From: Flavobacteriales bacterium
Lineage (GTDB): Bacteria; Bacteroidota; Bacteroidia; UBA10329
Assembly: GCA_021739625.1 (NCBI GenBank)
Contig: JAIPBJ010000017.1
Span: forward strand, 1-39,786
Reading direction: 5' to 3'
DNA: 39,786 nucleotides
The position numbers were made by a program, and so were the translations under genes. Position 1 is the first letter of the stretch; each line of letters opens with the position of its first letter. This document shows, piece after piece, positions 30,280-39,262 of this stretch. Under the pieces are notes generated by a model. It did not search any database. It saw nothing but the letters and a program-made list of their open reading frames with translations, and was not told the origin of the DNA.

Positions 30280-30352
30280 GGTACCATAGCTCAGTTGGTA
30301 GAGCAATGGACTGAAAATCCATGTGTCGCTGGTTCGACTCCAGCTGGTACCA
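30280..30352 (+). tRNA. tRNA-Phe (anticodon GAA)
   Basis: A 73-nt cloverleaf. Acceptor GGTACCA pairs with TGGTACC, D-arm GCTC/GAGC, anticodon stem ATGGA/TCCAT with loop CTGAAAA (GAA at 30313-30315), variable GTGTC, T-arm GCTGG/CCAGC with TTCGACT, discriminator A. The 3' CCA is not fully encoded. Confidence 0.97.
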
Positions 30353-30355
30353 CTG

Positions 30356-30389
30356 GCCCCGATTCCGCAAGGAGTCGGGGCTTTTTTTT
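30356..30389 (+). terminator. Rho-independent terminator of tRNA-Phe
   Basis: GCCCCGATTCC, loop GCAA and GGAGTCGGGGC form an 11-bp stem with one G-T pair, followed by eight T's. Confidence 0.95.
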
Positions 30390-30448: not shown

Positions 30449-30877
30449 TCAATTGTCCATCGCCCCCTGCTCGATCCATGAGCGGATGGACAGCAGTTCC
30501 TCGGTGGTGATCACCCCGTTGGGGGGCATCGCCAGACCGAATTCCCCCGAGCTGATCACCTTGTGCCACAGCACCGAGGCCATGGGGTCGTAGGGCACCA
30601 CCCGTTTCTCGGGCGGATAGCCTGTGGAGGTCACATTCACCAGTTCAGCGTAGGCGTTGTGCAGGCCCAGGTCCATGCCGCCATTGGGCGGATGGCACAC
30701 CCAGCAGTGCTGAATAAAGATGGGCAGCACCACATCGGCAAAGCTCACCGTGTCGAATCCGTTGATGGTGTCCAAGGGCGGCTGCACATAGAAAGGCCCT
30801 TCGTCCTTCGCGCAGCCCTGTGTGAGCAGCAAGGTCAGTATGGCAATGACGGCAACTGGAAAAAGCAGATCCTTCAT
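30449..30877 (-). CDS. Monoheme cytochrome c lipoprotein
   Basis: From ATG 30877 the protein has 142 residues, with a lipoprotein signal (lipidated C22 in LLTQGCAKD). One haem-c motif CWVCH is at 58-62, followed by PPNGGMDLGLHNAY. A likely distal methionine lies in FGLAMPPNGVITTEE, and SIRSWIEQGA is the usual C-terminal helix of such small cytochromes ('planctomycete-type' c). It is the last gene of the five-gene run and overlaps the DUF5777 stop by ATGA. It should be attached to the outer membrane, facing either side. Confidence 0.85.
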   Translation of the reverse strand: MKDLLFPVAVIAILTLLLTQGCAKDEGPFYVQPPLDTINGFDTVSFADVVLPIFIQHCWVCHPPNGGMDLGLHNAYAELVNVTSTGYPPEKRVVPYDPMASVLWHKVISSGEFGLAMPPNGVITTEELLSIRSWIEQGAMDN

Positions 30878-31800
30878 GGACGGGGTCTTCGGGGTTTGAG
30901 CCACAGCACGCGGCCTATGTTGAATCCCAGCAGGAAGTATCCCTTGTCATACCTCTCCGATGGAAGCGAATAGAGCCTATGCTCAATGATCTCGGTGCTT
31001 GTGCTCAGCACGATCTGAAACACGTGGCCCGCGGTGGCGATCTCGTATGCGATGGAGAACGGGTCGAGATGCGAGCCTTGCTGACGGCCGAACACCACCG
31101 GGGCATACTCGAACAGAATCGATCCCTTGGGCGACACTTTGACCCGACCGCTGATGGGCAATGCCACCGTGAGGTTCGACATGTAGGGCGGGGCAAGGTT
31201 CCTGTAGGTGACTATCGGGGCCAGTTGCAGTGAGAAATGCTGCCCGAACTTCCGCGCCACCATGGCCTGCGCGGCATAGTACATGCGGTGCTCGAACCGA
31301 TATTCGAAAGGGGTCACGCTGTCGGCAAAGAAATCGCGGTCGGTCACCACCGGGAACTCGTCCGTCATGATGGCCGCATTGAGATAGGCTGATACCGACA
31401 CGGGCACATGGTTGTCCACGGTCTGTTTCAGAATGCGGAATTTGCCGCCAAGGTCCACCATCTTGCTGTTCTTGCTGCGTCCCAGGTCGGCCTGAAACCA
31501 CTTGCAGAACGCGTAGGAGAACCCGAAGCGGATGTTGGCCGGAAGGTCGAACCCCAGAAACTGCATATAGCTCTGCTTGTCGGGCCCTATGGCCCCGAAC
31601 CGGTGTTGGATGGTGATGCCGAATCCCCGCGTGCGCGGCAGCAGGTCCGCACTTTGGCTGTTAATCACCGTTTGGCCCGCAAATACGTGGTTCACGGGTT
31701 CATGCACGGAAGGGGCGACAGCATCCTGCGCCTGCACCGGAATGCTCGCGCACAGCAGCATTGTGGCTACGGAAAGTACGAGGTGGCGTGCTCCCATCAT
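30874..31800 (-). CDS. DUF5777-family outer-membrane beta-barrel protein
   Basis: About 308 residues from ATG 31800 (a second ATG follows directly at 31797). A signal peptide (LVLSVATMLLCASIPVQAQ) is followed by the DUF5777 pattern: VFAGQTVINSQSADLLPRT, GFGITIQHRFG, IRFGFSYAFCKWFQADLG, VARKFGQHFSLQLAPIVTY, then GHVFQIVLSTSTEIIEH and GYFLLGFNIGRVLWL. It is a small beta-barrel predicted in the outer membrane. DUF5777 genes often sit beside cytochrome c genes, and here it lies between two. Both ends overlap its neighbours (cytochrome stop at 31797; next start at 30877), so it is translationally coupled. Confidence 0.85.
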   Translation of the reverse strand: MMGARHLVLSVATMLLCASIPVQAQDAVAPSVHEPVNHVFAGQTVINSQSADLLPRTRGFGITIQHRFGAIGPDKQSYMQFLGFDLPANIRFGFSYAFCKWFQADLGRSKNSKMVDLGGKFRILKQTVDNHVPVSVSAYLNAAIMTDEFPVVTDRDFFADSVTPFEYRFEHRMYYAAQAMVARKFGQHFSLQLAPIVTYRNLAPPYMSNLTVALPISGRVKVSPKGSILFEYAPVVFGRQQGSHLDPFSIAYEIATAGHVFQIVLSTSTEIIEHRLYSLPSERYDKGYFLLGFNIGRVLWLKPRRPRP

Positions 31801-32183
31801 TCCTTCAGGCTGCGTATGTAGCTCACCAGGGCCCAACGCTGTGCATCGGACAGCGAGTGGACGTAAGGTGCCATCTCGCCTCGGCCGTTGGTCACTTTCC
31901 AGAATATCGCACCATCGGTCTGCGACTGCACCAGGGCCGAATGGAGGGCTGCCGGCCGCACCTTCAGTGCTGCTGCCGAGGGGCCATCGCCTTTGCCCGT
32001 GGCCCCATGACACACCCAGCAATAGGCATCGAACAGTTTGCGCCCCTTCGTCATGGCCTTCGGGTCGTTCGCCAGCGGATTGGACAGCTTGTCGGCCTCC
32101 GTGGGGGCCTTCCATGGTTCGTTGACCACCGTCCACGACAGCAGCATGGGAATACACAGGAATAGGAGTTTCCTTTTGTTCAT
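31797..32183 (-). CDS. Monoheme periplasmic cytochrome c
   Basis: A 128-residue protein from ATG 32183 with a signal sequence (LLFLCIPMLLSWTVV). Haem-c motif CWVCH at 55-59 (C55, C58, H59) inside AMTKGRKLFDAYCWVCHG; ATGKGDGPSA follows. Distal ligand M104 lies in NGRGEMAPYVH, and the C-terminal helix is WALVSYIRSLKE. This is a class I cytochrome c_L/c551-type domain. It begins 4 bases after the polyferredoxin stop and would carry electrons through the periplasm. Confidence 0.92.
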   Translation of the reverse strand: MNKRKLLFLCIPMLLSWTVVNEPWKAPTEADKLSNPLANDPKAMTKGRKLFDAYCWVCHGATGKGDGPSAAALKVRPAALHSALVQSQTDGAIFWKVTNGRGEMAPYVHSLSDAQRWALVSYIRSLKE

Positions 32184-32187
32184 GGGT

Positions 32188-34173
32188 TCATGATCTCTTG
32201 ACAGCGCCCGGTCTCTGAGGCCGGTCATCGCGGATTCGCTTGAGTGCCAGACCGGCATTGACATGGGTCGGGTCGATGCGAAGAGCGGTCTGCAGGGCCG
32301 ACTCCGCCTTCTGGGCCTCGCCCTTTGCGAGATACAGCATCCCCAGATTGTACTGCGCCCGTGCATCTGTGGGCATCAGTTGGGCAAGCCTTTCCAGATA
32401 GGGCTGTGCCTTGGTCGGGTCGCCCGCCTTCATGTGTAGCGCACCGAGGTTGTTCAACAGCATCGGATGCTCGCCACCAATAGAAATAGCCTGCTCGAAA
32501 TGGCCGATGGCAAGCGCGTTCCGGCCTGTTCGGGATTCGGCATGGCCCAGTGCCACCAGTGCTTCCAGATGTTCGGGGTCGATGCGCACCGCGTCTGCAT
32601 AACTCGCCAGTGCTATGGCCGCGTTCCCCTTGCTGTCGCTGATGCGGCCCAGTTGCAGATGCGCCATGGACAGCAGTCTCACGTCCTGCGTGTGTGGACG
32701 CACCTTTCCCTCATTGACCATGCCGAGCCACTGGCGATGGGCACCGGCCGTGTCGCCCTGCTCTGCAAGGATGTTTCCGAGACGGAAGCGTGCCTCAATG
32801 TTGGAGGGGTCCAGAGATGCGATCTCGGTGAGCCTTTCCATGGATCGGGCCTGCTGACCGTCTGTCAGATATAGGCTTGCCAGCTCCTTGCGCAGGTCTA
32901 TGGGCTGCAGCAGGCCGAGGTGCAATGCCTTTTCATAGTGAACAATGGCCTCCTTCACCTGTTGCGGGTCGATGGTGGCCGCATGCCCCGATTCCATCAG
33001 TTGCATGAAGATGCGCTTGCCTGCCTTGGTGTGATACTGCACGACCGCGCTGTGGAGCATGAATAGCAGCACCATTGCGCCAAGGCCCGCCACGGCCATT
33101 CCGGGCCTGGTCCATTGTCCTGCATTGCGGAGCGTACTTCCCCTGAGGGAGACATTCCTTTTCGTCAAAGTGCGCCACACCAGTACCGAAAAGAACGCCA
33201 GACAGATTGCCAGTCCGGCCGACAGCAGCAGAGGAATGGCATCATACAGCCCGCGCAGCACTGCGATCGATCCAGCGAACACGGCCAGCATTGCCACATC
33301 CTCGCCCCACGAGAAACTGTATCGGCCCTCATATTGCCCCAACAGGTGCCCTTTCTGGAAAAGGGGAGGTATCCTCCAACCGAAATGAATGGCGTTCTCG
33401 GGGCATACCGAAACACAGTCGAGGTCTTTCAGACAACGGGGGTTGGTCACCATGCCGTGCTGTGCGATCTCGCGATGCACCTGAATGTCAGATGTGCAGG
33501 TGGCTGTACACAGGCCGCACTGGGTGCAGTTGCCCGTCAGTGCGATGCGCCCGGGCGCCAGTTGGTCGGCCACACCGAACAGTGCCCCATAAGGACACCC
33601 GTTGAAACAGAACCCGCGGTTGCCCAGAAGATAGACCACAAGGCCACCGCACACGAAGAAGGTGAGCAGGGCCACTTCCACTGGTGGCAGATTGCGCCAA
33701 AGGTCATCGGTGGTGAATGACGACCATTTCCCAGTGCCCGCCTCCACCACACGCAAAGTGTTCTCCGGTATGCCATGGAAGGCCGCCAATAGCTGCGGCC
33801 ACACGAACATGTAGAACAGCAGTATGAACGGTATGATGGCCAAAGTGCGCGACCGCAGCGGACGGGGTCTTATGCCCAACTTGTTAAGTATCCATGCGCT
33901 CAGGTCCTGAAGGGCAAGGATATGGCAGCCCCACGAACAGAAGAATCTCCCGAATACAAGCGTGGCCAGCATCACCACTGCCATCAGAATGAAACCTCCG
34001 GTCACAATGCCCTGATGCACGGTGTAGAGCACCTCGTTCAGTTCCAAGGGGGCCAACGTGCGCCCGGCCAGTTTCCAATGCACGAAATGGGTCACGAACA
34101 GCAGATGGATGCCGATGAGACTGAAGACCCTCCATTTCTCATAAGGTCTTTTTGCTGCACTTGCCATCGCCAT
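32188..34173 (-). CDS. NapH/CcoG-like polyferredoxin membrane protein fused to C-terminal TPR repeats
   Basis: A 661-residue fusion. Residues 1-265 are the NapH/NosR/CcoG-type module with several membrane segments (VFSLIGIHLLFVTHFVHW, GGFILMAVVMLATLVF, LAIIPFILLFYMFVW, VALLTFFVCGGLVVYLL). The paired motifs FFCSWGCH (C79, C83) and FCFNGCPYG (C189, C193) match the membrane Cys pairs of that family. A cytoplasmic ferredoxin-like part follows: cluster I C216, C219, C222, C226; cluster II C247, C253, C257, with D250 where a fourth Cys would be. After two or three more membrane segments, residues from about 400 carry at least six TPRs. It probably passes electrons across the inner membrane; the TPR half may dock partners. 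It starts 33 bases after the lysyl-oxidase stop. Confidence 0.85.
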   Translation of the reverse strand: MAMASAAKRPYEKWRVFSLIGIHLLFVTHFVHWKLAGRTLAPLELNEVLYTVHQGIVTGGFILMAVVMLATLVFGRFFCSWGCHILALQDLSAWILNKLGIRPRPLRSRTLAIIPFILLFYMFVWPQLLAAFHGIPENTLRVVEAGTGKWSSFTTDDLWRNLPPVEVALLTFFVCGGLVVYLLGNRGFCFNGCPYGALFGVADQLAPGRIALTGNCTQCGLCTATCTSDIQVHREIAQHGMVTNPRCLKDLDCVSVCPENAIHFGWRIPPLFQKGHLLGQYEGRYSFSWGEDVAMLAVFAGSIAVLRGLYDAIPLLLSAGLAICLAFFSVLVWRTLTKRNVSLRGSTLRNAGQWTRPGMAVAGLGAMVLLFMLHSAVVQYHTKAGKRIFMQLMESGHAATIDPQQVKEAIVHYEKALHLGLLQPIDLRKELASLYLTDGQQARSMERLTEIASLDPSNIEARFRLGNILAEQGDTAGAHRQWLGMVNEGKVRPHTQDVRLLSMAHLQLGRISDSKGNAAIALASYADAVRIDPEHLEALVALGHAESRTGRNALAIGHFEQAISIGGEHPMLLNNLGALHMKAGDPTKAQPYLERLAQLMPTDARAQYNLGMLYLAKGEAQKAESALQTALRIDPTHVNAGLALKRIRDDRPQRPGAVKRS

Positions 34174-34206
34174 TGTTTTTCTAACGCCCGTGCCGGGCCA
34201 TGCATC

Positions 34207-36282
34207 TTACCTCAACACCACCCGTCTGTCGTGGCGCCTGCCCGATACCGTCACACTCACCGCATACACACCCTTGGGCAGCGAGCTCAGGTCCAGTTCC
34301 TCCTGCACCGCCCCGTTCCTGGCGGGCCATGATGCCTGTGCCAACTTGCGCCCCAACAGGTCATGCACCTCAGCGACCACATCGGTCGTCCCGATCAGAT
34401 GCAACTGCACCTGCAACCGTCCGTCAGTCGGATTGGGGAACAGTTCCAATGCCCGCAACAGGTTCGCCTCATCAATGCCCGTGCAGTTGTTCACCGTCAC
34501 AGGCACGGCCACCATCTCGCTCTGGCACGATCCGCCTCCGGTCTCCACTTCCCATTCGTAGAAGTAATAGTAGCTCGATGCACCTCCTGATGTGCCTGTG
34601 ATGGAGGCCACGTTGGCCACATTGTATGGATAGCTCGCTCCGCTTGAATTGCGGTACAGGTCGCACAGCCCACCGATGGTGAGCCTGTATCCCATGCCCG
34701 GGGCGATGCTGATGTTGAGCTGTATATGGGACATTCCTTGCGGCACCATGGCCGTGCGGAACGCCAGCAGAGCGCCCAGGCTATTATACAGCTCAACGGT
34801 GCGATAGCCTGCCGAGCCTGCATAGACACGCACCGAACGCAGCAACAGCTGTTCGCTCACATCGAAGATCATGGCCTGCCCACCGGCATGATAGTCACCA
34901 GAGCCGGTGTTGTCCATCCTGCCTCCATAGCCTATCGTGCCGCTCTGGGCGTTCTCGTCAGAGACATGAAATATAGTGGAGCTGTAGAGCGGGGGTGATG
35001 TGAACTGATTGCCTGTTCCCAATATCTCGCCCTGCACATCATACCACACAGCATTGCTCCCTGTGGCCTGAAGCAGGGCCTGCTGGCCTTCGCAGATGGT
35101 GACCCCTGCCGCCTCGGGCGGGGCAGGCTGCGTGAGCTCTGTCACGGTGAATGGCATCGAGGTGGCTGTGCCGCAATAGGTGGTCACGGTGACGGTGTAG
35201 GTTCCCGGCCCGGCCCACACCGCATTGGAGGTCTTGCCGTTCGACCATTGGTAGCTCAGTCCTGCATTGGCGCGGAGCAGCACCGAGTCCCCTTCGCAGA
35301 TGAAGGATGTGCCATCGGCAAGTATCCGTGCCTGTGCCGAACCTGATGTGCCCTGCTGTGTCAGGGTGATGGGCACGGCCGTGTAGTTGTTGTCCTCGTG
35401 CTCTTCCAACACCACATCGAAGGGGTCTACCTCATAGACAATCCAGTAGTCCCCGTTGCAGGTGCCCGATGGGATGTCGATCCACATGCCGTCCAGATAC
35501 TCGCTGTAGATGTCGGTGTAGCCGGACGAGATGCCCATTTCCACCATGCTGCATCCGTAGTTGCCGCCTCCCAGCCCGAAGTTGGGAAAGTCGGTGTTAA
35601 GAAGGGTGGTGCCCTGATTATAGACCGTGTTGTCGTCCTTGCAGTGATGGAGCGCTGCCGCATCAGAACATCTGTTATAGTCCATCAGGCAGAATCCCAG
35701 CTTGTAACCGGTGTTGACAATGGGCCATTGCAGCGGGTTGCTGATTCCAGGTTCGGGCAGCCTCAGCGAGAAGAGACCCCATTGGTCGAAATGGACGTGG
35801 CCGTGTGTGGGGTGATAGGTCATGCCCTGTGGCATCAGTCGCTGATAGGAGGTCATGGTGTTGCCTTCTTTGCGATAGACCCTTTGGAAGGTGAGCTGCT
35901 TGGCCGTGCCGCCATACGGACAGGCGAACGTCTGTGAGGCATCCGGGTCGAAGATGGAGAACGTGTCGGTGCCGCAAACGAACCATCTGTAACCGTCAAA
36001 GTCAACCCCCTTGGCCACAAACGGACCGTGCCCGATGTTCGGGGTGGACCCGGAGATGTAAACGCGGTTATTCTGCTGCGTTGGCCCGCCCATGTAGTCG
36101 GTGATGCCATACCACGAGATGGTCATGTCGGGCAGCAGGTCGCACGTATCGACCCCGCCTTTGCACAGGCACGAGGTGGCGTTGCCGATGTTGCACTGCG
36201 CCAGGACCTTCGGCTGCCATGCGACCATGGAAAGAAGGAACAGACCTCCAGATAGGATAGGAGAATTGTAAAGTGTCTTCAT
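34207..36282 (-). CDS. Lysyl-oxidase-like copper quinoprotein with T9SS C-terminal sorting domain
   Basis: From ATG 36282 the protein has 691 residues, with a signal peptide ending KVLAQ at 25-29. Residues about 50-310 align by eye with the lysyl oxidase catalytic domain. The copper site THGHVHFDQW gives H160, H162 and H164, matching the HxHxH of LOX. TGYKLGFCLMD (K194) matches the GHKASFCLED lysine. GISSGYTDIYSEYLDGMWIDI (read as GISSGYTDIY and SEYLDGMWIDI) places Y259 at the cofactor tyrosine; K and Y together form LTQ. VLEEHEDNNYTA matches the 'VLESDYSNN' end. Ig/PKD-like segments (about 310-480), a galactose-binding-like stretch and a T9SS domain (LFPNPTDGRLQ, GRKLAQ, GVYAVSV) follow. Expected activity: oxidative deamination of lysyl side chains outside the cell. 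Confidence 0.82.
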   Translation of the reverse strand: MKTLYNSPILSGGLFLLSMVAWQPKVLAQCNIGNATSCLCKGGVDTCDLLPDMTISWYGITDYMGGPTQQNNRVYISGSTPNIGHGPFVAKGVDFDGYRWFVCGTDTFSIFDPDASQTFACPYGGTAKQLTFQRVYRKEGNTMTSYQRLMPQGMTYHPTHGHVHFDQWGLFSLRLPEPGISNPLQWPIVNTGYKLGFCLMDYNRCSDAAALHHCKDDNTVYNQGTTLLNTDFPNFGLGGGNYGCSMVEMGISSGYTDIYSEYLDGMWIDIPSGTCNGDYWIVYEVDPFDVVLEEHEDNNYTAVPITLTQQGTSGSAQARILADGTSFICEGDSVLLRANAGLSYQWSNGKTSNAVWAGPGTYTVTVTTYCGTATSMPFTVTELTQPAPPEAAGVTICEGQQALLQATGSNAVWYDVQGEILGTGNQFTSPPLYSSTIFHVSDENAQSGTIGYGGRMDNTGSGDYHAGGQAMIFDVSEQLLLRSVRVYAGSAGYRTVELYNSLGALLAFRTAMVPQGMSHIQLNISIAPGMGYRLTIGGLCDLYRNSSGASYPYNVANVASITGTSGGASSYYYFYEWEVETGGGSCQSEMVAVPVTVNNCTGIDEANLLRALELFPNPTDGRLQVQLHLIGTTDVVAEVHDLLGRKLAQASWPARNGAVQEELDLSSLPKGVYAVSVTVSGRRHDRRVVLR

Positions 36283-36650
36283 GGCACGAAAGGGTTCGGT
36301 GACCACGGGGGATGGCCCGAATGTATCGGTGCCGGGCCACCCGTTATATGATGCATGTCATATTAGGCGCTCCCGTAAAATGGCCTCTTCAGAAATTCTT
36401 TGCGCCCATCGACATTCACAATGTCGATTTATTTTGGTAATCCATCTTTTGTATTCGAGACGAGAACCTTAGCGATCGGATTTTAGAGTCTCCTATGGTT
36501 CTCAACAGATTTTCTGGGCAATCAACATCCAAGATTCTTCGGACTTCGTCCACTGAACTTGAGCGCCCCCCCCCGAAATCAATAAGGGCCTTGTTGGACT
36601 GCGTCTTTCTGAATGGACAGCTTCAATGGCACAAAATTATCTTCACTGCT
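36283..36650. other. Gene-free region between the lysyl-oxidase operon and the response regulator
   Basis: No gene is visible in these 368 bases. A weak -7-like TACATTCG on the minus strand (36318-36325) could serve the lysyl-oxidase operon. A run of eight C's lies near 36566, and GAGAACC (36462-36468) has a distant inverted partner GGTTCTC (36497-36503). No terminator is evident after the response regulator. Confidence 0.4.
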
Positions 36651-37346
36651 TCAGATCCTGTTCAATCTGCCGTGCAGGGCATGGTGATAGGTCCTGCCCA
36701 CTGGAATCTGATGGCCATTGATGATCACGGTATCTTCAAGTATCTTTTCAATGGCATCCAAATGAATAATATAGGAGCGATGAATTCTGATGAACCGTTC
36801 CGGGGGCAATTTGCTTTCCACCGTCTTGAGGGTATATGATATGGTGAATCTCTTATCCCGTGTATAGACCTGTGTATAGTTGTCAAGGGCCTGTAGGTAC
36901 AGTATGTCTTCAAATTTGACCTTCACCAGAGCGTTGCCAGTGCGCACGAACAGTTCTTCATAGTCCGGCTTGCTTTCAGGTTCCTTGAACAAAGCAATTT
37001 CAACGTTGGAAATAATGCTCCTTTCGGTGAACGGTTTGACGATGAATCCGGCTGGCCGCGTTCGTTTCACCCGGTCTATGGTCAGTTTGTCCGCATGACT
37101 TGTAAGGAAAATGAAAGGTATTCCGAATGTGCTGTTGATGTATTCTGCCAGCATTATGCCGTCCATGTCCCCTTCCAACGAGATGTCCATCATGACCAGA
37201 TTGGGCATCAGGTCGCGGACCATGTCCATGGCCTGTCTGCCGTTTGATGCCAGACCTACCACTTCATAACCACTTTCGATCAGAATCCCTTCAATGTCAT
37301 CGGCCAGTATAGGCTCATCCTCCACAATCAAGATCCTTCTGCTCAT
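36651..37346 (-). CDS. LytTR-family response regulator
   Basis: A 231-residue regulator. The receiver domain is at 1-118: ILIVEDEPILADDIEG with the acidic pair, phospho-acceptor D54 in LVMMDISLEG, FLTSHAD and the conserved lysine in GFIVKPF. The LytTR DNA-binding domain follows at about 130-230: LFVRTGNALVKVKFEDILYL, QALDNYTQVYT, ERFIRIHRSYIIHLDAIEKI, PVGRTYHHAL. Its ATG overlaps the kinase stop by ATGA, so it is the partner of the adjacent sensor kinase. Target genes are unknown; LytTR regulators bind paired direct repeats. Confidence 0.94.
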   Translation of the reverse strand: MSRRILIVEDEPILADDIEGILIESGYEVVGLASNGRQAMDMVRDLMPNLVMMDISLEGDMDGIMLAEYINSTFGIPFIFLTSHADKLTIDRVKRTRPAGFIVKPFTERSIISNVEIALFKEPESKPDYEELFVRTGNALVKVKFEDILYLQALDNYTQVYTRDKRFTISYTLKTVESKLPPERFIRIHRSYIIHLDAIEKILEDTVIINGHQIPVGRTYHHALHGRLNRI

Positions 37347-39262
37347 GCCGCGTGTCTGTATCTGTTAATGGTCAACCTAACTTCCAGCCCGGGATTCACA
37401 TTTGTGTATAGCACATCCGATTCCAGTTTTCTACACAGGGACCGTATTAGTTTCATTCCGTAAGAGTCGGTCTCATCGGGATTGAAATTGGTCGGCAAGC
37501 CTGGCCCATTGTCTCGAACAGTAAGCACCAGCCTACCTTTCTGCTCTTTCAAAGATATGTACAGCATTGGGTTGCTTTCGCTGTAGCCGTATTTCAGGAC
37601 ATTTGTTATCAGCTCATTTGTGATCAGACCCAAGGGAATCGCTGTATCAATGTCCAGATTCAGGTCGGCAATGTCCAATTTCACTTCCATGTGCCGAGCA
37701 TCCGTGGTGGCCAGCAGCTCTGCTACCAGTTGAGGCACATATTCCTGCATCAGCACACCTTTCAGATTGTCTTCCTGATAGAGTCGCTGGTGAATGAGCG
37801 TTACGGATGCCACTCGGTTGCGGCTGTCGCGAAGGGCCTGCGATGCCTGTTTGTTGTGGACATGACGTGATTGGAGGCTAAGAAGACTGGATATCATCTG
37901 CAGGTTGTTCTTAACCCGATGATGTATCTCCTTCAGCAGAATGCCTTTTTCCACAAGTGCCGCTTCTATCGTTCTGTTCTTACTTTTGATGCGTAGCAGG
38001 GAAAAGCCCCCTATCAGCAGCAGCAATGCTGCTGACACACTCAGGCCGATGAACAGGTTGCGTTGTGCATTCTTCGTACTGATGGCTGCCTGATTCCTCT
38101 CATTGTCGGCATTGAGCAGTGCGATGGCCTTTTCCTTCTTCGCTGTCTCATACTTCGTATTCAGGCCCTCGATCATTGTCGATCGCTCCAGATTGTACGA
38201 TTCTTTGTCCAACTCGTGGTAGCGCTTGAAATAGTCCAAGGCCAAGGGTGCATCTCCAAGCCGCTCATATATTTGGGCAAGCCCCAACAGATTGTCTGAC
38301 TTGATTTCTGTGAGATCTTGTTCAGTGGCAAGTGCCAAACTTTTTTCATACAGTGCTATGGCCTTGCGCGGTTGTTCCGAGGCAGCATAGGCATCCGCCA
38401 GATTGTTGTAGCACAAGGGCAGGGTCTGAAATCGATCTGTGACCTCGAATATGTCAGATGCTTTTTTCAACAGCTTAATGGCCTGGCCAAATTCGTCTTT
38501 GCCAAAGTGACTCATTCCCATGTTACCATATGCGCTGGCCATTTCCGATGAATCGTTCATGGCGAGGGCGATATTCAAGGCCTTTTCGGCATAAAAGAAA
38601 GCTGAGTCATATTGACTTTGGAATTGCGAAATGGCGCTTAGGTTGTTGTAGGTGTTAAGCAGCGATTTCCGATCGGCATATTGTTCTTTGATCCTCGCAG
38701 AGCGGAGGTAGTACTCCTTGGCCTTGTCATAATTCTTCTACGTACGGTATATGAGGCCGATGTTGTTGAAACTCTGCCCGATCTGTTCGGTATCGCCCAG
38801 CAGCTCACGTATGGACAACGCGGCCATGAGATAGGCCATGGACGAATCATAATCGCCATGATAGTAATGGCTTACACCGATGTTGTTCAGGATGTTGGAA
38901 GTGCCTTTCCTGTCTTTCAATCGCTTTTTTAGACCCAGGGCCAGATGGTAGTACCACGTAACGGAATCCCCCACGCCTTCATAATCAAAGGCCATCCCCA
39001 TGCTATTGAAGGAGTTGGCCATCAATTCCATGTCGTTCAGCTTGCGTGCAAGGGCAATGGCACTCTTCGCATATTCCTTGGCCTGTTCCACATCCGAGGC
39101 GCAAGAATACCAGCTCAGCTCATTGAGGAGACTGACCTTGAAAGAGTCATTTGTGGCGAGCTTCAGCTCCTGGCCAAGACTATCTACGATCCGCGCATTC
39201 TGTGCCGGACAAGAATAGCCGATCAGCGTGAGGACAGATACCGACCACCAGTTTCTGAACAT
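37343..39262 (-). pseudogene. TPR-containing HisKA_2 sensor histidine kinase split by one in-frame amber codon
   Basis: Read through, the frame from ATG 39262 to 37343 encodes about 638 residues: a signal-type N-terminus (SVSVLTLIGYSCPAQ), seven or more TPRs, a coiled region, one membrane segment (FIGLSVSAALLLLIGGF, about 402-424), a HisKA_2 domain with phospho-acceptor in KEIHHRVKNNLQMISSLL (H448 or its neighbour H447), and an HATPase domain (ITNELITNVLKYGYS, VRDNGPGLP, GMKLIRSLC). Codon 175 is TAG (38740-38738), inside a TPR (FNNIGLIYRT-stop-KNYDKAKEYYL). No frameshift accompanies it, and the reading is continuous on both sides. The pieces are an N-terminal fragment (38738-39262) and a C-terminal frame from about 38578 that keeps TPRs, membrane segment and kinase. 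CAG-to-TAG is the simplest origin; sequencing error, suppression or restart are alternatives. Confidence 0.8.

Follow-up and report, generated by a model that had tools for sequence, protein, structure and literature searches.

Gene Content and Organization of the Locus

The window analysed here is a 39,786-nucleotide stretch of a Flavobacteriales bacterium genome (assembly GCA_021739625.1, contig JAIPBJ010000017.1, positions 1 to 39,786), and the system in question is a set of five of its genes encoding a secreted lysyl-oxidase-domain protein (LOX), a polyferredoxin (PFD), two cytochromes c (CYT1, CYT2) and an outer membrane barrel (BAR). A preliminary description of this DNA had read the five as one operon and a possible redox chain across the cell envelope. 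The genes were confirmed on the minus strand in the order LOX-PFD-CYT1-BAR-CYT2 (36282-30449), all at the positions first reported and packed as one unit, and the family calls (lysyl oxidase with a type IX secretion system (T9SS) signal, polyferredoxin-TPR, cytochromes c, DUF5777 barrel) held in Pfam and NCBIfam searches.

34207..36282, minus strand: LOX, 691 amino acids (aa), T9SS-secreted lysyl-oxidase-domain protein (PF01186, PF19081, PF18962, TIGR04183)
32188..34173, minus strand: PFD, 661 aa, inner membrane polyferredoxin with a C-terminal TPR superhelix (Fer4_5, 4Fe-4S, TPR)
31797..32183, minus strand: CYT1, 128 aa, exported monoheme cytochrome c (PF13442/PF00034, 8-sequence alignment)
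30874..31800, minus strand: BAR, 308 aa, DUF5777 outer membrane beta barrel (PF19089, 5.9e-63)
30449..30877, minus strand: CYT2, 142 aa, monoheme c lipoprotein (CxxCH invariant in 8 orthologues)

LOX and PFD are separated by 33 bases and PFD and CYT1 by 4 bases, while CYT1/BAR and BAR/CYT2 each overlap by 4 bases. A terminator between LOX and the redox genes had been named beforehand as evidence against a shared transcript; the 33-base gap contained no terminator-like site, and promoter-like matches were at chance level. A Bacteroidota-type promoter (TTTG-N-TANNTTTG) was looked for upstream of LOX and was not found, with a lone TAATTTTG present far upstream only.

Conservation and Co-inheritance of the Five Genes

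When the membrane part of PFD was used to query 99 relatives, ten strong matches came out, followed by a gap down to weak polyferredoxin noise, with identities of 47-63% for the nine strong matches other than the window itself. LOX adjoined PFD in all ten of these genomes; the five genes were in the same order and on the same strand in eight, and PFD and LOX faced each other in two. Many further Bacteroidota sets were recovered by a motif-based scan of GTDB genomes and profile searches of 80 loci. To remove the bias of the motif scan, 316 evenly sampled genomes of the class (completeness at least 90%) were searched with the PFD alignment. PFD was present in 16, with no weaker match down to E 1e-40, and a LOX-domain gene lay beside it in 15 of the 15 loci with a readable flank, which belong to families f1, f4, f6, f9, f22, f27, f37, f44 and f61 and include one locus in a single-contig genome (G151); the tenth PFD-positive family (f15) is a contig-edge case whose flank could not be read. 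The set was in order at 13 loci of the even sample; at one of these the contig stops before CYT2 is reached. The neighbourhood survey called for by the preliminary description, which would have set LOX apart had it adjoined these genes in this genome only, thus found the set conserved in many genomes.

All five genes in the same order were found in 21 non-redundant loci from at least seven families. Across these loci the pairwise protein distances correlated at 0.87-0.95 for every pair of protein families (0 of 2000 permutations as high), a measure of co-inheritance and not of contact, and the five genes are therefore inherited and evolving as a unit. Chance adjacency was ruled out by the repeated five-gene order, the distance correlation and the even sample, and metagenome mis-assembly by the many independent assemblies and genome G151. 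The five genes are inherited together across many Bacteroidota families and very probably form one machine. At a split set (L200, on the same contig as the PFD and LOX of G013), CYT1 and BAR stay together beside a T9SS-secreted CxxCH protein. L065/L226 was uninformative (contig edge).

The LOX Protein and Its Copper Site

The lysyl oxidase assignment with a T9SS signal was sustained by PF01186 (34.1 bits against a cut-off of 20.4, profile positions 128-197 only) and by a type A T9SS C-terminal sorting domain (TIGR04183, 44.4 bits against 23); the protein also carries an Ig_7 domain (PF19081). The copper motif HPTHGHVH is at residues 157-164 (His157/160/162/164) with the HxHxH copper talon present, and Lys194 and Tyr259 are the lysine tyrosylquinone (LTQ) pair, aligning in a profile match to LOXL2 (5ze3) with GHKASFCLED and DMY. 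The copper/LTQ site of the window LOX is complete, and the protein is probably a redox-active quinoprotein. The LTQ Lys and Tyr, and in the window the copper histidines too, are shared with LOX/LOXL2 (PMC4448552), whereas the operon LOX matches the second half of the Pfam domain only, has an Ig_7 domain and T9SS tail, and has lost the copper site in several lineages. A second, ordinary LOX in the same genome (contig C79) scored 100 bits over almost the whole domain compared to 28.7 bits over positions 128-197 for the operon LOX in that search, which places the latter in a separate, divergent subfamily.

Copper ligands were lost in 17 of the 29 PFD-linked LOX sequences (15 Bacteroidota, 2 Planctomycetota), with full copper ligands and the LTQ Lys/Tyr retained in the window LOX and 11 others. 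The copper motif was replaced by GGGSLYND in L034/L035/L037/L052 (similarly in L058), by TQNNTRF in L047/L049 and by other motifs in L059/L068/L069/L074 and L038/L040/L061, and in the two Planctomycetota LOX, which are also without the LTQ Lys, the motif is absent altogether. A tree from which the copper-motif columns were excluded requires five changes of copper state, and its well-supported branches by themselves force at least three for the copper-less linked group. Two of the losses are nested within copper-bearing clades of PFD-linked LOX. Loss was counted over 49 positions invariant in 23 copper-bearing LOX sequences. The first copper-less lineage has lost five of these, all in the copper motif and including all four histidines (chance of such a focused loss about 2 in 100,000 by a simple count that ignores relatedness), and L047/L049 have lost only the four histidines among the invariant positions covered by both sequences. 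The copper histidines were kept in 10 of 10 subfamily members with no PFD within the fetched flank (L184, which ends at a contig edge, was left out). Four LOX without PFD (L182, L187, L188, L189) have a kept copper motif and stand beside a beta-propeller (Reg_prop) protein of about 415 aa, mostly T9SS-tailed. From this distribution we infer that copper became dispensable in some lineages once LOX had joined the redox genes.

Since copper histidines were lost in several PFD-linked lineages, copper amine oxidation cannot be the general purpose of the set. The preliminary description had suggested LTQ or copper redox cycling or surface-protein cross-linking; given the 17 losses, such cycling and O2-dependent cross-linking are not supported as a general rule, and can apply only to histidine-keeping lineages including that of the window. 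It is unlikely that LOX is a copper amine oxidase at the surface with an outlet to respiration, oxidizing amines and passing electrons via CYT2, BAR and CYT1 to PFD and the quinone pool, with some electrons diverted from O2 as in methylamine dehydrogenase with its cytochromes. Such a role, possible for copper-bearing lineages such as that of the window, is favoured by the 12 complete copper and LTQ sites and the NapH/MauN-type polyferredoxin, but more than half of the PFD-linked LOX are without copper ligands while the other genes stay in most such loci, and monoheme parts with a narrow barrel offer no clear path.

The Polyferredoxin

PFD is predicted from hydropathy and the positive-inside rule to have about seven transmembrane helices, with the N-terminus in and the TPR outside, and its AlphaFold2 (AF2) model (predicted local distance difference test, pLDDT, 89.5) was confident in the TPR and most helices. 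On the cytoplasmic side are CxxxCH, CxxxCP and two 4Fe-4S motifs. His29 and His84 do not vary among 62 relatives drawn from several phyla, nor do the cysteine motifs or a motif on the outer side (Gly37, Leu40-Ala41-Pro42, Glu44, Glu47); His32 and His374 are nearly invariant. The outer side could conceivably hold a heme b or a quinol site.

The membrane Fer4_5 core with cytoplasmic 4Fe-4S motifs is shared with the NapH, MauN, NosR and CcoG polyferredoxins, but in PFD the first CxxxCP is replaced by CxxxCH, and additional helices and a long TPR domain in the periplasm are present. It had been described as a NapH/CcoG-like polyferredoxin-TPR; the polyferredoxin and TPR were borne out, while membership of NapH was rejected at 58.3 bits against the NF007013 equivalog cut-off of 234. 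No other nap genes were recognized in the window operon, the neighbours of other loci being only partly annotated. A search for solved relatives of the membrane part gave a weak soluble-ferredoxin match only, and a structure search with PFD was filled by TPR-domain matches.

Outside Bacteroidota, PFD relatives (mostly Planctomycetota) often adjoin a five-heme protein of about 630 aa (14 loci). For two of the relatives the neighbour is a secreted LOX-domain protein that carries a PEP-CTERM motif and, in one case, a dockerin domain as well. The neighbours of Planctomycetota PFD had no single common partner. Given these five-heme and LOX-domain neighbours, PFD may be a general inner membrane feeder of outside redox proteins. 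Among L062-L121 (Planctomycetota and others), the protein of about 630 aa, with about five CxxCH, is often directly upstream of PFD-TPR relatives.

The Cytochromes and the Outer Membrane Barrel

CYT1 has one CxxCH (55-59) and an invariant Met104 in the 8-sequence alignment. CYT2, also with one CxxCH, gave a weak PSCyt1/CBB3 match only; CxxCH, Met117 and Cys22-x-K-D were invariant in eight orthologues. Its N-terminus from Cys22, C-A-K-D-E-G, agrees with C-X-K-(D/E)2-X, the optimal surface-export signal of Bacteroidetes lipoproteins as defined in Capnocytophaga (PMC5080379). BAR matched DUF5777 (PF19089) with 212.8 bits against a cut-off of 23.1, and its AF2 model is a 12-strand barrel (pLDDT 90) whose nearest folds are KdgM, NanC, FapF and the COG4313 channel (VIA Z 17-18 to KdgM, FapF and the COG4313 channel). 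No sequence relative of DUF5777 was found in the PDB, and no paper in the open-access collection searched mentions the family.

The preliminary description had likened the barrel and its flanking cytochromes to an electron conduit. An outer membrane barrel was upheld, and the likeness to an Mtr-type conduit was weakened by the narrow 12-strand model. Porin-cytochrome conduits (MtrCAB, PioAB, OmbB-OmaB-OmcB) and Cyc2 similarly have a barrel encoded with c-type cytochromes, one of them predicted on the surface, but the operon has monoheme cytochromes, 12 strands, and an additional polyferredoxin and T9SS LOX protein. An Mtr-type conduit was rejected on the single CxxCH of CYT1 and of CYT2 (compared to multiheme cytochromes) and on 12 strands compared to a large 26-strand barrel; Cyc2 was rejected because cytochrome and barrel are separate genes with no fused chain.

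DUF5777 was present in 89 of the 99 relatives, and of 30 generic DUF5777 loci 26 had a CYT2-like gene within the flank and 26 a YceI gene. YceI is a periplasmic isoprenoid-binding family. A DUF5777 barrel beside a CYT2-like lipoprotein cytochrome is thus common to the generic module and the operon, but the generic module has YceI and is without PFD, CYT1 and LOX, and the operon barrel is a separate, lower-scoring paralogue. With both genes so frequent at generic loci, the operon looks like the common CYT2 and DUF5777 pair in which PFD and CYT1 have taken the place of YceI and to which a surface client has been added. The combination of DUF5777, CYT2-like lipoprotein cytochrome and YceI (L151-L180, L192-L199) is a near-universal module of the class and apparently undescribed.

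The company that generic DUF5777 pairs keep with YceI, and a BAR with no visible electron path, would suit a periplasmic chain in which the cytochromes and barrel do transport or repair in the envelope and LOX is structural and merely shares the promoter. LOX, however, adjoins PFD more constantly than any other gene does, even in loci without CYT1 and BAR, and its distances track those of PFD (r 0.95), which makes an unrelated surface protein improbable.

Flanking Genes and Copper-Related Alternatives

At about nine loci in the wider clade to which the window belongs, a gene for MbnP (PF20243) and an MbnH/MauG-family diheme gene, the pair transcribed divergently from LOX, stand next to it and are followed by a Crp-type regulator, and the window genome carries the same trio on another contig (C93). 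In this one clade, these neighbours hint at a part in handling copper or in maturing a protein cofactor. In methylamine dehydrogenase (mau) and MbnP/MbnH modules, too, a protein-derived quinone or a partner with a modified residue goes with a MauG-family diheme enzyme, and a NapH/MauN-type ferredoxin is nearby in some loci; the operon differs in having no tryptophan tryptophylquinone (TTQ) subunits and in its diheme gene, which is divergent and absent beside the window operon. On a further contig of the window genome (C20, L203), two neighbouring MbnH/MauG-family diheme genes were found with an MbnP domain match nearby.

A copper-handling module would have PFD reduce Cu(II) to Cu(I) like CcoG, the barrel admit copper, and LOX and the nearby MbnP/MbnH bind or load it. 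The trio beside LOX and its copy on C93 speak for this, but the MbnP/MbnH pair is neither beside the window operon nor in other clades, the LOX copper site is dispensable, and no copper chaperone or copper ATPase was among the neighbour genes scanned; we regard the module as rather improbable. Still harder to credit is that a Lys-Tyr quinone is built in LOX by the redox chain, joined in some genomes by MbnH/MauG-like enzymes, so making copper dispensable. Lys194 and Tyr259 are indeed kept in 15 of 15 copper-less Bacteroidota LOX, and copper-less L047 still has the diheme gene next door. Of the 49 invariant residues, however, 23 others are equally kept, so retention of the Lys and Tyr may be structural, and Planctomycetota LOX are without the Lys and most copper-less loci without MbnH.

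In five loci the first operon gene encodes a T9SS CxxCH or CxxxCH 'choice-of-anchor V' protein. The T9SS CxxCH/CxxxCH proteins that head the operon or stand beside the split CYT1-BAR support an outside redox end. CxxxCH replaces CxxCH in this upstream protein in a lineage with copper-less LOX (L034 12526-13401, L035 6500-7312, L037 6707-7528).

Upstream of LOX in the window is one further gene of interest.

36651..37346, minus strand: LytTR response regulator (PF04397, PF00072), 368 bases upstream of LOX and on the same strand

This is a possible regulator of the operon in the window genome only; no LytTR regulator stood upstream of LOX in any other locus mapped. Together with a TPR-HisKA_2 kinase, likewise missing from this place in the other loci, it occupies 36651-38578, directly upstream of LOX and on its strand. 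Between the regulator and LOX is a perfect 9-bp inverted repeat, ATCGACATT-CAC-AATGTCGAT (36408-36428), which could be an operator or a weak terminator. Beyond the other end of the operon, and convergent with it, a tRNA-Phe followed by a strong terminator is on the plus strand (30280-30382).

A Proposed Inner Membrane-to-Surface Redox Chain

We consider it slightly better than an even chance that the five genes encode a dedicated inner membrane-to-surface redox chain with a LOX-fold surface partner. PFD topology, the barrel, the CYT2 signal and the LOX T9SS tail make a line from the inner membrane to the surface plausible, with predicted placement of PFD in the inner membrane, CYT1 in the periplasm, BAR in the outer membrane, CYT2 as a surface lipoprotein and LOX exported by T9SS. 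At the inner membrane, PFD would draw electrons from the menaquinol pool or from a donor in the cytoplasm, and its periplasmic TPR would serve as the dock for CYT1. CYT1 would then carry electrons over the periplasm to an outer membrane complex of the DUF5777 barrel and surface-exposed CYT2, and electron exchange may follow between CYT2 and either the LOX-domain protein delivered by T9SS or a partner outside the cell that LOX holds. The copper-free LOX of other lineages would fill the same slot as a docking or relay scaffold, which argues for the chain, and not amine oxidation, as the common function. The trans-envelope chain of the preliminary description is retained for its conserved set and its predicted parts from inner membrane to surface, and given up where it needed copper/LTQ chemistry as a general rule. 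More tentatively, and less probably, the system may be a new class of trans-envelope electron-transfer machine, made of single-heme parts and a narrow barrel whose LOX-fold surface terminus repeatedly shed copper and kept the Lys-Tyr pair, an oxidase turned redox-linked surface component.

Several observations weigh against such a chain. Its weakest step is the outer membrane, where a single heme on either side of a 12-strand barrel does not explain electron tunnelling; no cofactor was found in BAR, and no electron path through the narrow barrel is visible. Should this step fail, the chain may stop at the periplasm, with LOX no more than a co-expressed surface protein, an outcome judged improbable. 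The surface exposure of CYT2 is a prediction from a motif, its lipobox is weak (LTQGC), and most orthologues have KDS, KDT or KDQ and not KDE. LOX-PFD-CYT2 occurs without nearby CYT1 or BAR in L059/L222, and only PFD and LOX are in view in L038/L040/L061; the middle parts are therefore not always linked. Net outward electron flow is modestly preferred, by analogy with quinol-oxidizing NapH-type proteins.

Significance

No description of the five-gene set was found in open-access papers on DUF5777, bacterial LOX with cytochromes or Bacteroidota conduits, in agreement with the initial statement that no described system has this set. It appears to be undescribed, although its component families are known and so are other forms of electron transfer in the envelope. 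The role of bacterial lysyl oxidases has only been speculated on (PMC4448552). Tying a LOX subfamily to a fixed electron-transfer gene set over at least nine families makes that role testable. The operon also points to an unstudied outer membrane redox pair, DUF5777 and a lipoprotein cytochrome, that most genomes of the class carry, and the loss of copper ligands alone from a familiar copper enzyme provides a natural experiment.

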